From Alphaproteobacteria bacterium (GTDB lineage Bacteria > Pseudomonadota > Alphaproteobacteria > Thalassobaculales > Thalassobaculaceae): a DNA stretch of 35,344 nucleotides. Numbering within the stretch: the stretch's first letter is position 1; every line of letters begins with the position of its first letter. A program made the translations under genes and the position numbers. Below are positions 14,224 through 21,502 of this stretch, piece by piece. The notes beneath the pieces are model-generated. The model had not been told where the DNA came from and did not search any database. It saw only the letters and a list, made by a program, of their open reading frames with translations. Where the stretch lies: contig JANSYC010000039.1 of the NCBI GenBank assembly GCA_024742605.1, positions 1-35,344 on the forward strand, in the 5' to 3' direction.

Positions 14224-14240
14224 AGCCAGATCCGCTCACT
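14211..14240. terminator. Candidate bidirectional terminator between convergent genes
   Basis: Arms 14211-14219 (AGTGAGTGG) and 14232-14240 (CCGCTCACT) pair over nine positions with one G-T wobble and a 12-base loop. The hairpin spans the stop codons of both the AtuA-related gene and the convergent histidine kinase. There is no T-tract on either strand, so efficiency is uncertain. Confidence 0.3.
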
Positions 14241-16779
14241 TCACCCCTTCTCCGACCGGTGATCGCGCGAAGACCAGAGTGAACTTGGACCCCGCGTCGG
14301 GATTGGATCCCACCACCAGCTTTCCGCTCATGCGACGCATCAGGCGGCTTGTGATCGCAAGGCCCAGCCCGGCGCCCTGCCCTTCGGCGACCAGCGCATT
14401 TTCACGCCTCAGGAAGGGTTCGCCGATCCTTTCGATCATATCCGCGCTCATCCCCGGCCCACGGTCCAGAACCGAAATCATCGGGCGCCCGTCCTCCCGC
14501 GTCGCCTCGACCAGGACCGCCGAGCCGGGTGCGGAGAACTTCACCGCGTTGGACAACAGATTCAGGAGACACTGATGGGTCGACCGACGGTCCGCCGCGA
14601 TCACCAGATCGTCATCGATCCGTGCCTCGACCGATACCCCGTAGCGCTCGGCGATGGGATGAATGGTCTTCAGCGCGCGCGCGACCAATTCGGAAGTCGC
14701 CAGACGCTCCGGCGTGAGTTCGACGGAGCTGCTCTCGATCGTCGAGATCTCGAGGATGTCGTTGATCAGGTCGAGAAGCTGGCTTCCGCTGTCATAGATA
14801 TCCGCCGCATAGCCTTCAACCTTGGACTCGCCCAGAGATTTAACACCGAAAGTCTTCAGCATTTCGGAGAACCCGATAATGGCGTTCAGCGGCGTGCGCA
14901 ACTCGTGGGACATGTTCATCAAGAACTGGAGCTTGGCGTTGTTCGCCTCTTCCGCCTGCTGAAGCTTTTCCTGAAGCTCCTCCGACAAGGTCGAGAGTTG
15001 CTCGTTCGCCAACATGATTTCAGTCATGTCGTGGGCGCTGACGGCGACCGAAATCTTCCCGCCGACCTCAAACCGCGCCAGCGAGACCATGGCCGGAAAC
15101 GTCGAGCCGTCGCGGCGCAAAGCCTGAACGATCCGCGAACTGGAGGACATCGGCCCGGCTTTTGACGCGGCGTCCGCGATATACTTGTCCATGAGACCGG
15201 CGTGCCGGCCCCTGACGAACTGCGGCACCAGAACATCGATCGGGGCGCCGACAAGATCCTCCTTGGTCCATCCGAACAGATTTTCCGCCGCCTCGTTCAC
15301 CATTTCCACCCGCTGGTGCTCTGAGACCGTCAGAATCGCATCCGGCACCGCGCGCAACACGGCTTCGAAGTGATCGCGGAGAGTCGCGAACGCGTTCTGG
15401 TCTTCGATCTCTCGTGTCACGTCGGTTTGGATACCGACATAGTGGGTCAAACCCGCGTCCGCATCGAAGATCGGTGCAATGCGGAGCTGATTCCAAAACC
15501 GGGTACCGTCCTTCCGCCGATTGCGCAGGGTCACCGAACAGGCCGTACCCTGTTCAAGCGTCTCTCTTATGACAGCCAGTTCCTCCTGGTCGCGCTCATC
15601 GATATTGAGAAAGCGACAGTTTCTGCCGACGACCTCGTCATACGCATAGCCCGTCATTTCCAGGAAGCCCCGGTTGGCATAGACCAGCGTGTGATCGGGC
15701 CCCGCGGTGGTCACCAGGACCCCGTTCGTCGCCGACTCCAGGGCCGCACTTTTCAGCGTCAGATCCAGGTCGAGCTCCACGTCGCGGGTAACGTCGATGC
15801 TGACGCCAAGAACAGTAACGCCTTCAGGACGACCCCGATTCGGCACAAACTCCGCAATAAAGCGAATGTACCTCCTATGCCCAGAGGGGGTGCGAACGGT
15901 GAGGGTCCGATCCCAGCGCGAGCGGGTCGACTTGGCGGTCTCGAAATCGGCAAGAATCGTACCCCGCGCACCGTCGACGAGCATCCCATCGAACTCCAAC
16001 ATCGTCTTCGGCGCACCGTCGGTGCCGAATATGTCGCGCTGAACGGGATCCCAGATGAACCGATCGGTATCCAGGTCGTATTCCCAGATGCCGATCCCTG
16101 CAGCGCTGCGGGCCAGGCGCGACTGCTCGGTGATCTTACGGTAGAATTCTCCCTCATCCGCGATCCGGAACATGTTCTCCAGGATCAGTCCGAGAACAAG
16201 AACCCCGATCAGGTTGCTTGAAAGCAGAATCCAGCCGAAGGACGACAGAATCGCTAGTCCTGTGGACACATCGACACTTAAGAAGAATGACGGAATCACC
16301 GTGACCGTCGAGAAAACCGCCAACGCCACGAAGCCTAGGACACCGTAGGCCTCACGGTGGAGAGCCCCCATGATCCAAACCGCCATCAATCCGGACACCC
16401 AATAGAGATAGAGGCTGACGACGCCCCCCAGGACAACCGGCCCGCCGACTTCGTAGCGGGCGATGGCTCCGAGGGTGGCCGCGATCAGGCCGGCAAGAGG
16501 CCCACCGAAAACCGTCGCCATCACCACCGGCGCCGAACGGGTATCAAAGGTCGCCCCGTATGGCGTTACGATCGGCAGTTCCACCACGACGACCGAAAGC
16601 GCGCCGAGCACCAACCCGAACATCGCCTGATTTCTCAAGCCGTTCCTTTTTTTTCTGGGGCCGTGCCACTTTTTGAACTGGTCCGGCGCGAGCCGGAATT
16701 GAGATGCCATCAGGAAAACGAGCGTGGCACCGCCGCACAGCACGAGCAGATTATTCAGGAGCGAGAACCCCAAATTCAT
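14236..16779 (-). CDS. Membrane LOV/PAS sensor histidine kinase
   Basis: 847 residues. About six hydrophobic segments (residues 5-200) include FGGPLAGLIAATLGAIAR, typical of the 5TMR-LYT sensor. Then come a PAS fold (about 220-335), a LOV domain (about 345-458), a third PAS (about 466-590), a short coiled coil, HisKA (His625 in MNMSHELRTP) and HATPase (Asn744, DRGPGM at 772, GAGLGLA at 802). The LOV call rests on GRNCRFL with Cys388, the flavin-adduct cysteine, plus Arg389, Asn420, Asn430 in FWN and Gln451 in GIQTDVT. The usual Gln after FL is Asn392. LOV domains sense blue light through FMN. It has no receiver domain and no response regulator gene adjacent. Its ATG overlaps the diguanylate cyclase stop (ATGA). 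Confidence 0.93.
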   Translation of the reverse strand: MNLGFSLLNNLLVLCGGATLVFLMASQFRLAPDQFKKWHGPRKKRNGLRNQAMFGLVLGALSVVVVELPIVTPYGATFDTRSAPVVMATVFGGPLAGLIAATLGAIARYEVGGPVVLGGVVSLYLYWVSGLMAVWIMGALHREAYGVLGFVALAVFSTVTVIPSFFLSVDVSTGLAILSSFGWILLSSNLIGVLVLGLILENMFRIADEGEFYRKITEQSRLARSAAGIGIWEYDLDTDRFIWDPVQRDIFGTDGAPKTMLEFDGMLVDGARGTILADFETAKSTRSRWDRTLTVRTPSGHRRYIRFIAEFVPNRGRPEGVTVLGVSIDVTRDVELDLDLTLKSAALESATNGVLVTTAGPDHTLVYANRGFLEMTGYAYDEVVGRNCRFLNIDERDQEELAVIRETLEQGTACSVTLRNRRKDGTRFWNQLRIAPIFDADAGLTHYVGIQTDVTREIEDQNAFATLRDHFEAVLRAVPDAILTVSEHQRVEMVNEAAENLFGWTKEDLVGAPIDVLVPQFVRGRHAGLMDKYIADAASKAGPMSSSSRIVQALRRDGSTFPAMVSLARFEVGGKISVAVSAHDMTEIMLANEQLSTLSEELQEKLQQAEEANNAKLQFLMNMSHELRTPLNAIIGFSEMLKTFGVKSLGESKVEGYAADIYDSGSQLLDLINDILEISTIESSSVELTPERLATSELVARALKTIHPIAERYGVSVEARIDDDLVIAADRRSTHQCLLNLLSNAVKFSAPGSAVLVEATREDGRPMISVLDRGPGMSADMIERIGEPFLRRENALVAEGQGAGLGLAITSRLMRRMSGKLVVGSNPDAGSKFTLVFARSPVGEGVK

Positions 16780-17909
16780 ACGGGCTGGCCCGCCTGAGCA
16801 CGAAGTCCGAGTGCAGGTTCAAGCGGAACCAGATCATCGACGATCGAACAGTTCCGTCCCGATCGTTTGGCGTCGTAGAGGGCTTGGTCCGCGCGGCGCA
16901 GCAGCTCGCCGACCGACAGTTCCCGACCAAAGGAGGATGTCAGCCCAGCACTGACCGTCACTAGCAGATCGACGCCGGTCGAAATTGGAATCGGCGTCTC
17001 CGAAAATGTCGTTCTCAACCGCTCCACGATGCTGAGCGCGTTCTCGCAGGAGGTTTCCGGCAACAACAGGATGAACTCCTCTCCGCCGAAACGGCCCAGA
17101 ATATCCGTATCGCGGATCTGGTTGTGACACAGATCTGCAAACCGGCGGATAACCTCGTCTCCGACCGAATAGCCGTGGCATTCGTTTACGGCTGACAGGC
17201 GATCTAGATCGAGAATCGCAAAACTCAATGGGTTTCCGTATCTCGCGGTTCGGCGCAACTCCGCCAGCGCCCTGGCTTCCCAGGTGGCCCGCGTGAACGC
17301 GCCGGTCAGGGAGTCGAGATCTCCGACCGTGCGCGACTCAAGCTCGTTCACGATTACCTTCGCGAAATCCGACAGGATCTTCACCTGCCGTTCCGTGAAA
17401 CTCCGCGGCTTGGTGTCGACCACACAGAGACTGCCGACGGCATACCCCTCGGGGGTCATCAGCGGAATGCCAAGATAACTCCGTATTCCCGGCTCTCCCG
17501 TGACCAAGGGGCTGTCCGAGAACAATGGATCCCGGAGTGCGTCGGGCACCAGGAACGGGGCCGGCCGTTCAACGGTATGAGTACAGAACGAGATCTCCCG
17601 GGGCGTCTCCGAGACCGAAAGTCCACGCTGTGCCTTGAACCACTGGCGCTCACGGTCGACCAGAGAGACCGCGCAGATCGGAACGTCCAAAATCTGCTGC
17701 ACCAAATTCATGATGGTCTCGAACGCATCCTCCTCCTGCGTATCGAGAACTTCATACCGCTCAAGGGCACGCGCCCGGCCTTCCTCGTCATCGCCCTTGA
17801 AGGTTTGCACCATCAAACGCTCCGACTGGTGTCTGCCGACCATTAACCGACCGCTGTCGTCACGGACAACGGTTCTAGATGTTTGTTCGTTCGCGGGGGG
17901 GTTGATCAT
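16776..17909 (-). CDS. GAF-domain diguanylate cyclase (GGDEF)
   Basis: 377 residues: an N-terminal GAF domain (about 45-190, starting ERYEVLDTQEEDAF) and a C-terminal GGDEF domain (about 195-355). The active loop is GGEEF (275-279), so c-di-GMP synthesis from two GTP is expected. An allosteric I-site RDTD (266-269) sits exactly five residues upstream, implying product inhibition. The substrate helix reads DLDRLSAVNE where the consensus is DLDxFKxxND, so Phe, Lys and the last Asp are changed; activity may be reduced. The start at 17909 is weakly supported (GAGAGA upstream); Met23 or Met33 would still keep the GAF domain. It is the first gene of an operon with the LOV kinase. Confidence 0.9.
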   Translation of the reverse strand: MINPPANEQTSRTVVRDDSGRLMVGRHQSERLMVQTFKGDDEEGRARALERYEVLDTQEEDAFETIMNLVQQILDVPICAVSLVDRERQWFKAQRGLSVSETPREISFCTHTVERPAPFLVPDALRDPLFSDSPLVTGEPGIRSYLGIPLMTPEGYAVGSLCVVDTKPRSFTERQVKILSDFAKVIVNELESRTVGDLDSLTGAFTRATWEARALAELRRTARYGNPLSFAILDLDRLSAVNECHGYSVGDEVIRRFADLCHNQIRDTDILGRFGGEEFILLLPETSCENALSIVERLRTTFSETPIPISTGVDLLVTVSAGLTSSFGRELSVGELLRRADQALYDAKRSGRNCSIVDDLVPLEPALGLRAQAGQPV

Positions 17910-19382: not shown

Positions 19383-19820
19383 ATGTCGGTCCAGACCCTT
19401 CTCGTGCTCGGCATATTCGGCCTGTTGATTTGGCTCGCGGTTCGGATGACCCGGAGCACGCTGCGGCATCTTTCGGAGCAGGAAGCCCTGATCGATCAGG
19501 GCGGCATCGGGCGCCTGGTAGTGGAGATGAATCCAGGAACCGGCGCCGTCGACGTGGTCAGCGACCATCTGGCCGACATGCGCGCGAGTTGGCATCCAAT
19601 TCGGTTTCCGGAATCCTGGGAATCCCGTTCGGCAGGGTTTCCGCCCGAGAAGGTCGAGTTCGACGGCAGGCTCAGCGGGCGGCGCAAATGGTGTGAGGCC
19701 CACTGCAAGGGCCGCTGGCGGGTGGAGGCCCCAGCCAGCCTCGCACCCGTGTTCTGGTTCGAACGGCGCGACGATGCCGATGGCTTTTCGCTCGCCTGGT
19801 TCCCGTTCAAATGCCTTTAG
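19383..19820 (+). CDS. Hypothetical membrane-anchored protein, 145 residues
   Basis: Residues 5-20 (TLLVLGIFGLLIWLAV) form a single N-terminal membrane anchor, followed by a basic cytoplasmic-type stretch and a soluble domain rich in Trp and Arg, with WCEAHC (two cysteines) and a final WFERRDDADGFSLAWFPF. I do not recognise the family. GAGGGAG lies 11 bases before the ATG. The last 14 bases overlap the end of the convergent gene on the other strand. The alternative minus-strand frame 19293-19703 has no ribosome site and less natural composition. Confidence 0.55.
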   Translation: MSVQTLLVLGIFGLLIWLAVRMTRSTLRHLSEQEALIDQGGIGRLVVEMNPGTGAVDVVSDHLADMRASWHPIRFPESWESRSAGFPPEKVEFDGRLSGRRKWCEAHCKGRWRVEAPASLAPVFWFERRDDADGFSLAWFPFKCL

Positions 19821-20370
19821 GGGCCGGACGGCTCTTCAGATTTTCCAGAGCGACCAGAACATCCGCGCCGTAGGCTCCTCGTGCCGGGACGGCGGTGGCG
19901 ACGAGGTCCTGCCGTTCAATCAGCGTTTCGAACGCCTCCCGCTGCACGACCGGGCGTCCGGTTCGTATCAGATCCTCACAAATCTGCTCGATCCAAGCGA
20001 TCCGTTCCGGGTCCAGATCCGGGAGAGCGTCGATCTTCGGCGCGTCGATCAGAACATGCCGCGCCCGCCGCCGCTCCCCCTCGCCAAGCATCTCGAACGC
20101 CATCAACCTGGACCGGGTCGGACGGAACGCGGCCAGCCCCTCTCCCGCATCCGGGCGGCGCCAGGCTCCGAGCAGACGGTCACCGTCCCGGACGACGCCC
20201 TCGGCCCCCGTGCGATTTCGCTGCGAAACGGGGGCCGTCACATCCGCCATGAACGACGCCGGACCGGGACGACGGGAGGCCTTAGGCGTAGTGCGTGTCC
20301 CTCCCGCCCGCGGATCGATCCCGAGCAAGGACGCGGCCAAACTGTCATCCGCCTTGCCGGACGCCTTCAT
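19807..20370 (-). CDS. Hypothetical third gene of the ParA-RHH operon
   Basis: 187 residues, unknown family. The N-terminal 45 residues are basic and Pro/Ala/Gly-rich, probably disordered. The rest has predicted helices (RSRLMAFEMLGEGERRRARH; ERIAWIEQICEDLI; REAFETLIERQDLVATAV). No catalytic motif is visible. Its ATG overlaps the stop of the ribbon-helix-helix gene (ATGA at 20367-20370), so it is translationally coupled and likely acts with ParA and the RHH protein, for example as a cargo adaptor. That role is inference. Confidence 0.75.
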   Translation of the reverse strand: MKASGKADDSLAASLLGIDPRAGGTRTTPKASRRPGPASFMADVTAPVSQRNRTGAEGVVRDGDRLLGAWRRPDAGEGLAAFRPTRSRLMAFEMLGEGERRRARHVLIDAPKIDALPDLDPERIAWIEQICEDLIRTGRPVVQREAFETLIERQDLVATAVPARGAYGADVLVALENLKSRPAPKGI

Positions 20371-20681
20371 TTGGGATTGGCCTCCCGGGCCAGCCAGGCA
20401 GCAAGGGCTCGGGTCAACAGACCGTTCGCGCTCGTACCCTCCCGCTCCGCCCCAAGCCTGAGCGCTGCATGATCCTCGACACTGAGCCGGAAGGTGAAAC
20501 GCTTTCGGTCCACCACGGGGTCCCTGCGCGGCGATGGCGATCTGGTGGCGGCCGGAGTAAGATTGGCAGCAGGCTGCAAGCGCAGCACCGGCACGGGTCT
20601 CGACCGGCGCGGGGGCTCAGAGGGGCGCGCCTCCCAGCCCTGCGACGGGCTCGCCTGACCTTTCATGACGAACAATCCCAT
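20367..20681 (-). CDS. Ribbon-helix-helix DNA-binding protein (ParG/CopG-like)
   Basis: 104 residues. The C-terminal part (about 59-100) fits a ribbon-helix-helix fold: strand RKRFTFRL, helix SVEDHAALRLGAERE, turn GTSANG, helix LLTRALAAWLARE. The first 55 residues are basic and Pro/Ser-rich, probably a flexible tail. ParG-type centromere-binding proteins have just this layout, a mobile N-terminal tail that acts on the ParF ATPase plus an RHH dimer that binds DNA. It lies 18 bases after parA, as expected for such a pair, with GGAAGG upstream of the ATG. A plain CopG-type repressor is the alternative. Confidence 0.82.
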   Translation of the reverse strand: MGLFVMKGQASPSQGWEARPSEPPRRSRPVPVLRLQPAANLTPAATRSPSPRRDPVVDRKRFTFRLSVEDHAALRLGAEREGTSANGLLTRALAAWLAREANPK

Positions 20682-20699
20682 GGTCCATTCCTTCCCGGA

Positions 20700-21383
20700 T
20701 CACGCGGCGCCGATCAAGGGCGCCGGGCGGGCACGCAGGTCGGGCGCCAAGCGGGTAGGACGCCGCCCTTCGAGGCGATCCGACAGATAGGTCCAGAGCC
20801 GTCGGACCTCGTCTGCCGACCGCCCGGACGCGTCGACTTCCATGACGGTCCGACCGTCGATCATGCTCGCCGCGAAATCGGTGCGCTGATGAATGGTGAC
20901 AGGTGCCACCGTGCCATGCTGAGACAGCACAATCGCTGCTTCACCGGTTATGCGCGCGCGGGGTGTGGCACCGTTGACCACGAAGACCAGCGGCTTTCCC
21001 AACCGTTCGACGATCTCGATCGTAGCGCCTGCGGCTCTCAGATCGTGCGGGCTGGGCCGTGTCGGAATGGCCACGAGGTCGGAGGTCGCGACAACCCGTT
21101 CGATCGTTTCGGTGATGGCGGGCGGCGTATCGATCACCAGCAACTTGATGCCCTGACCGCGCATCTGTGCCACATCCTGCTCAATGCGAGACACATAGGT
21201 GTGGGCGAATACCGGCACTTCGCTGATCCGTTCGTTCCACCAATCCGACAAGCTGCCCTGCGGGTCGGCGTCGAGAATCGCAACCGGTCCGGCGCCGGCG
21301 CGTTCGGCCGCCACCGCCACATGTCCGGCAAGGGTGGTCTTTCCGCTACCGCCCTTTTGCGAAGTAAAGGTCAGTATCTGCAT
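20700..21383 (-). CDS. ParA-family partition ATPase (ParF-like, no HTH)
   Basis: 227 residues. The deviant Walker A is KGGSGKTT (Lys10 signature, Lys15), switch LDADPQG (Asp40) and Walker B LLVIDTPP (Asp85). It begins directly with the ATPase fold and has no N-terminal HTH, the small 'type Ib' form. Such ATPases move DNA or protein cargo over the nucleoid. The frame extends to 21419, but ATG 21383 has GGAGGAG just upstream. The downstream partner is an RHH protein rather than ParB. The chromosome's own parAB would normally sit near gidAB, so this looks like an additional, plasmid-type or cargo-positioning system. No replication gene is nearby. Confidence 0.93.
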   Translation of the reverse strand: MQILTFTSQKGGSGKTTLAGHVAVAAERAGAGPVAILDADPQGSLSDWWNERISEVPVFAHTYVSRIEQDVAQMRGQGIKLLVIDTPPAITETIERVVATSDLVAIPTRPSPHDLRAAGATIEIVERLGKPLVFVVNGATPRARITGEAAIVLSQHGTVAPVTIHQRTDFAASMIDGRTVMEVDASGRSADEVRRLWTYLSDRLEGRRPTRLAPDLRARPAPLIGAA

Positions 21384-21502
21384 AATTCTCCTCCCGCTCA
21401 ACCAATCACCACGAATCAAACGCCAATTCTCTTAATAACTATTGTGCGTTACTGAAATACCGATCCGGTTATCTGTCAATATATAAATACAGTTATTCTT
21501 TG

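Follow-up and report, generated by a model that had tools for sequence, protein, structure and literature searches.

The membrane sensor histidine kinase encoded in the window (the whole 35,344-nucleotide stretch of DNA, from an alphaproteobacterium of the family Thalassobaculaceae, that was analysed) unites in a single polypeptide (Table 1) a membrane domain resembling an S-component, a LOV domain and a PAS domain resembling that of FixL, and this stack, rather than the diguanylate cyclase encoded beside it, is the chief interest of the locus. Blue light is very probably one of the signals that the kinase senses; oxygen and a small molecule may be others. The explanation that we favour as a whole, to which we give slightly better than even chances, is that of an S-component-anchored LOV kinase that signals to an unlinked receiver and is co-expressed with the cyclase. 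The cyclase pairing matters less because it is not conserved.

Table 1. Features of the kinase–cyclase unit, in positions of the window; residue numbers refer to the respective protein.
Feature	Position	Strand	Description
Diguanylate cyclase	16776..17909	(-)	377 aa; GAF residues 60-188, GGDEF residues 198-353
ATGA overlap, cyclase stop / kinase start	16776..16779	(-)	4 bases
Membrane sensor histidine kinase	14236..16779	(-)	847 aa, without receiver domain
Membrane domain PF07694	16174..16653	(-)	residues 43-202; modelled ECF S-component fold
First PAS-like domain	15775..16110	(-)	approx. residues 224-335; placed by homologue alignment
LOV domain	15406..15753	(-)	approx. residues 343-458; PDB sequence matches, motif residues
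Third PAS, FixL-like	15001..15384	(-)	residues 466-593; His526, Arg549
HisKA + HATPase_c	14266..14937	(-)	HisKA 615-683, His625; HATPase_c 730-837

The middle PAS domain of the kinase is a canonical LOV domain, and it gives the strongest Pfam match in the protein (PAS_9, residues 354–455, 5e-37). Comparison of this stretch (residues ~340–466) with PDB sequences returned 160 matches, of which the best 60 are nearly all LOV photoreceptors or LOV fusions. The match is specific to the middle domain, because in the same search the flanking PAS domains, used as a control, gave no match in the case of the first and haem PAS domains only in the case of the third. The motif GRNCRFL at residue 385 supplies the adduct cysteine, Cys388, and is accompanied by the flavin contacts Asn420, Asn430 and Gln451 and by the FMN-phosphate arginines Arg389 and Arg405. 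With the adduct cysteine in a GxNCRFL context, the flavin-contact Arg, Asn and Gln residues present, and LOV structures nearer than other PAS structures, the domain is a LOV domain rather than a generic PAS domain. The sequence-only reading had proposed this from Cys388 and the Asn and Gln contacts, all of which were found, and the two arginines can be added to its list. The motif deviates slightly in having Asn after CRFL, where Gln is the usual residue, and GRNCRFLN also occurs in LOV proteins from many genera. For YtvA and CrLOV1 the flavin-contact comparison used what we take to be their sequences, while the other references came from the PDB-search alignments. The domain, the single LOV domain detected in the genome at E ≤ 1e-20, is predicted from these residues to bind flavin.

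The membrane domain matches PF07694 (5TM-5TMR_LYT, 3e-12) with a profile score of 46.8 bits, above the curated cut-off of 24.6, and is preceded by an extra N-terminal helix. Its structure model aligns with RibU at a Z of 11.6 (152 residues, 2.8 Å), whereas chains outside the S-component/CbiM group reach a Z of at most 6.5, which suggests that the membrane part has an ECF S-component fold. Proteins of the PF07694 family have been described as having this fold and more than five helices, with PAS, GGDEF and kinase outputs frequent among them (PMC11109136). The family assignment behind the label “5TMR” used in the sequence-only reading thus stands, but the label itself is outdated. RibU is also the best sequence match of the domain, although a weak one (E 0.012). 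Riboflavin was considered as the membrane ligand and set aside, given this weak lead and the presence of ThiT and others within 1 Z unit of RibU, and no ligand is claimed. At the place of the first PAS-like domain, orthologues have PAS_3 matches. At the C-terminal end, SHELRTP at 624 carries the phosphoacceptor His625 of a HisKA domain, followed by HATPase_c. Pfam and the domain searches together support the proposed order 5TMR-LYT, PAS, LOV, PAS and HisKA. The general stress response (PhyR) is not favoured as an output, the kinase being of the HisKA type and the alphaproteobacterial pathway being coordinated, according to one account (PMC12148442), by HWE/HisKA2 kinases.

The third PAS domain is FixL-like, a point absent from the sequence-only reading. 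Its best PDB sequence matches are haem PAS domains only (FixL-like, E 1.8e-17). In a Foldseek search with its structure model (mean pLDDT 84), the top 32 matches are all haem PAS structures, with LOV structures following, and a second structure aligner likewise places haem PAS domains in the lead (Z about 17, against 14–16 for other PAS domains). His526 aligns with FixL His200 and Arg549 with the distal FixL Arg220, a position marked directly in the alignment by the R220A mutant entry 1y28. The F-alpha histidine, His200 in FixL, was identified in a survey of PAS domains as the main haem-binding determinant of the FixL/DosP cluster (PMC10468136). Both the F-alpha histidine and the distal arginine of FixL-type haem PAS domains are therefore present, in a common class of domain for which haem binding has been shown for some members and not for every one. 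Sequence and model together lead us to predict that this domain binds haem, and the kinase may in consequence respond to a ligand, to light and to oxygen. When a sample of LOV proteins was scanned for motifs rather than with a profile, LOV and the FixL-like motif occurred together only in the present kinase subfamily, and a search of the open-access literature yielded no description of a kinase that carries both a LOV and a haem PAS domain.

It could be that oxygen or redox state is what the kinase chiefly senses, through the FixL-like PAS domain, with LOV as a secondary or vestigial input. The third PAS adjoins HisKA, as in FixL, and neither His526 nor Arg549 varies among eight homologues, one of which has lost the LOV cysteine. 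Haem binding, however, is a prediction here, and all flavin-contact residues checked are kept in the present kinase and in three Thalassobaculum proteins, pointing to maintained flavin chemistry. We consider a mainly oxygen-sensing role unlikely and retain the blue-light receptor as the better description.

The cyclase gene comes first in the unit and the kinase gene second. The GGDEF domain of the cyclase scores 113.6 bits and bears the GG(D/E)EF signature of active cyclases as GGEEF at 275, together with an RDTD inhibitory-site motif at 266. Among solved structures, PDB 4zmu is the closest relative across the two domains (residues 41–354, E 2.8e-56). The protein is predicted to make c-di-GMP. 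The kinase ATG overlaps the TGA of this GAF-GGEEF cyclase in the four bases ATGA (sequence at the junction, GTATGAAT), exactly as the sequence-only reading had it. Co-translation of the two genes is plausible yet not special, because four further gene pairs in the window overlap by four bases (7458-8471/8468-10768; 19807-20370/20367-20681; 33873-34286/34283-34912; 34283-34912/34909-35325).

No receiver domain (Response_reg) was found by Pfam in the kinase or the cyclase, nor in the twenty neighbouring proteins scanned. The sequence-only reading had concluded that no response regulator stands between kinase and cyclase. The lack of an adjacent one does not imply direct kinase-to-cyclase signalling, because 41 receiver domains above the family cut-off are encoded elsewhere in the genome, several of them in open frames of 128–144 codons that could be stand-alone receivers. 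In the mechanism that we propose, the protein would be a blue-light receptor histidine kinase anchored by its S-component-like membrane domain and probably tuned by the FixL-type PAS as well. Light would produce a Cys388–FMN adduct in the LOV domain, and the third PAS and a coiled linker would relay the signal to HisKA/HATPase, with a change in the phosphorylation of His625 as the result. From there the phosphate would go to a receiver protein whose gene lies elsewhere in the genome. The cyclase, encoded just upstream and presumably made from the same transcript, would synthesize c-di-GMP under the control of its own GAF domain; kinase and cyclase would therefore be co-expressed rather than directly wired.

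Alternatively, the two proteins could form a dedicated pair in which the kinase directly controls the REC-less cyclase, by binding or by unusual phosphorylation, so that a single operon would convert both blue light and a membrane ligand into a c-di-GMP signal. The four-base overlap, the common strand and the lack of a nearby REC are consistent with such a pair, and the first two, as points against an unlinked receiver, would allow that this lineage has come to link the genes functionally. Precedents can be cited in the LOV kinase–cyclase wiring of Erythrobacter, which does use a REC, and in an Oleiphilus metagenome-assembled genome (MAG) where a REC-GGDEF gene adjoins that of a LOV hybrid kinase. 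Direct control is conceivable because the Erythrobacter phytochrome kinase BPHP-15570 reportedly interacts with DGC-0450 and activates it (PMC12172448). The frequency of four-base overlaps in the window alone, the separate GAF sensor and missing REC of the cyclase, and the absence of the pair from all relatives readable at the locus nevertheless make a dedicated pair, in our estimate, quite unlikely. We regard as very improbable the fullest form of this idea, in which the kinase integrates an S-component ligand, blue light through FMN-LOV and oxygen through FixL-type haem and, co-translated with the receiver-less cyclase, drives it directly. Signalling to an unlinked receiver is most likely, with direct control of the cyclase as the minority reading.

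Full-length kinase homologues with the same architecture and 42–45% identity are found in three Thalassobaculum genomes (T. litoreum L043/L028; L029; L030), the genus being assigned through the T. litoreum contig that matches. All three adjoin ahcY and are flanked on their opposite side by the gene of an Lrp-type regulator (gene names by sequence inspection). A fourth homologue, from another family (G131, L031:8917-11469), has 36% identity and the same architecture, with GRSLKIL in place of GRNCRFL. Lacking the LOV cysteine motif, it could represent a counterpart that is naturally blind to light, or else a pre-LOV state. No cyclase gene lies beside any of these four kinases, and in Thalassobaculum the kinase therefore works without an adjacent one. 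In a search of 398 genomes of the phylum with the LOV-PAS-HisKA core (E ≤ 1e-90), only the present genome was found, so the kinase subfamily is narrow. Two further genomes bearing the same genus label as Thalassobaculum (G012 and G020) are 1.5-Mb single contigs, rated 99% complete, compared with 4.7–5.6 Mb in their genus mates; they contain almost no histidine kinase candidates and are possible reduced-genome symbionts.

Cyclase homologues of about 50% identity occur without this kinase beside them in five other genomes and as one more copy in the present genome; it is the neighbour of none of these six, whose flanks were examined. Of the 36 genomes of the order that were searched, no other shows the kinase–cyclase pair. 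In the sister species, two contigs (C714 and C705) end just outside the corresponding spot, one on each side, and no close cyclase match was found in its assembly, which breaks off at the unit on both sides. A conserved kinase–cyclase operon is thus rejected for the readable relatives, none of which has the two genes adjacent. Of the proposal that blue light and a membrane ligand are joined to c-di-GMP output, the absence of a receiver from the two proteins and the scanned neighbours and the likely co-translation hold up; a conserved circuit does not, since the pair is missing from every readable relative, an outcome that the sequence-only reading had itself named as refuting; the unit also lies at a synteny break. 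The neighbourhood of the two genes has the look of a local rearrangement and not of a conserved device for turning light into c-di-GMP.

The rearrangement could also have joined by chance two genes that are functionally unrelated. The unit is located where the gene orders of relatives diverge, with the AtuA gene region on one side and a separate conserved block on the other; its region has a G+C content of 58–61%, compared with 62–67% for most of the window outside 14–23 kb; and the kinase is away from the ahcY locus used by Thalassobaculum, the ahcY of the present genome being on a different contig and having no kinase for a neighbour. Overlapping start and stop codons, however, normally signify co-translation, on which selection can act, and we hold a purely accidental association to be highly doubtful; co-expression of the two, with the kinase signalling to an unlinked receiver, is preferred. 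A search of a plasmid collection gave no record covering 80% of the region. Also within the stretch of uneven G+C, positions 19807-21419 (-) encode in a row a small ParA-like ATPase (VirC1 profile match), a weakly HicB-like protein and an uncharacterised protein.

The closest characterized system is that of Erythrobacter flavus 21-3, in which LOV-1477 activates DGC-2902 and blue light raises c-di-GMP (PMC12172448). Both systems comprise a LOV histidine kinase and a diguanylate cyclase. In Erythrobacter the HK domain is on the sensor and a REC on the cyclase (PMC12172448), whereas the present cyclase has a GAF domain and no REC, and the present kinase adds the S-component-like membrane domain and the FixL-like PAS. 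In the Oleiphilus MAG (L048:5089-9681), a MASE1-LOV-PAS-HisKA-HATPase-REC-REC kinase directly precedes the REC-GGDEF gene. This locus, possibly a membrane LOV phosphorelay to c-di-GMP, resembles ours in its membrane-anchored LOV kinase and immediately adjacent cyclase gene, but differs in its MASE1 anchor, hybrid kinase, REC on the cyclase and kinase-first gene order. The claim of novelty for a split, 5TMR-anchored arrangement is accordingly weakened: activation of a cyclase by a blue-light LOV kinase has been published (PMC12172448), the Oleiphilus MAG has an adjacent pair, and the kinase itself is a variant of known sensor kinases.

LOV-GGDEF fusions (PMC10396304) place LOV sensing and GGDEF output in one polypeptide, whereas here LOV is on the kinase and GGDEF on a separate protein. 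Fusions of this kind, about 630 aa long and with the LOV motif preceded by ~340 residues, were also seen in Marinobacter, Halothiobacillus and Haliea (L046:5152-7047, L053:5140-7020, L055:5095-6993). PDB 4zmu shares the GAF-GGDEF layout of the present cyclase and, judging from its PDB entry, stands alone as an enzyme. The Thalassobaculum kinases are the same 5TMR-PAS-LOV-PAS-HisKA-HATPase protein, differing in their ahcY and Lrp-type neighbours and the lack of a cyclase. FixL is similar in having a PAS domain adjoining HisKA, equivalents of His200 and Arg220, and the best match in both fold and sequence; in the present kinase, LOV and the S-component-like membrane domain precede this PAS, and haem binding is predicted. 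Most LOV receptor kinases are soluble and cytosolic (PMC6798134). Man-made LOV-FixL chimeras are already in the PDB, and nature appears to have placed LOV directly before a FixL-type PAS-kinase unit as well. A natural LOV kinase fused to a membrane domain resembling a vitamin transporter and to a FixL-like PAS would be a small, self-contained system for examining how light, oxygen and a ligand are weighed against one another within one kinase.
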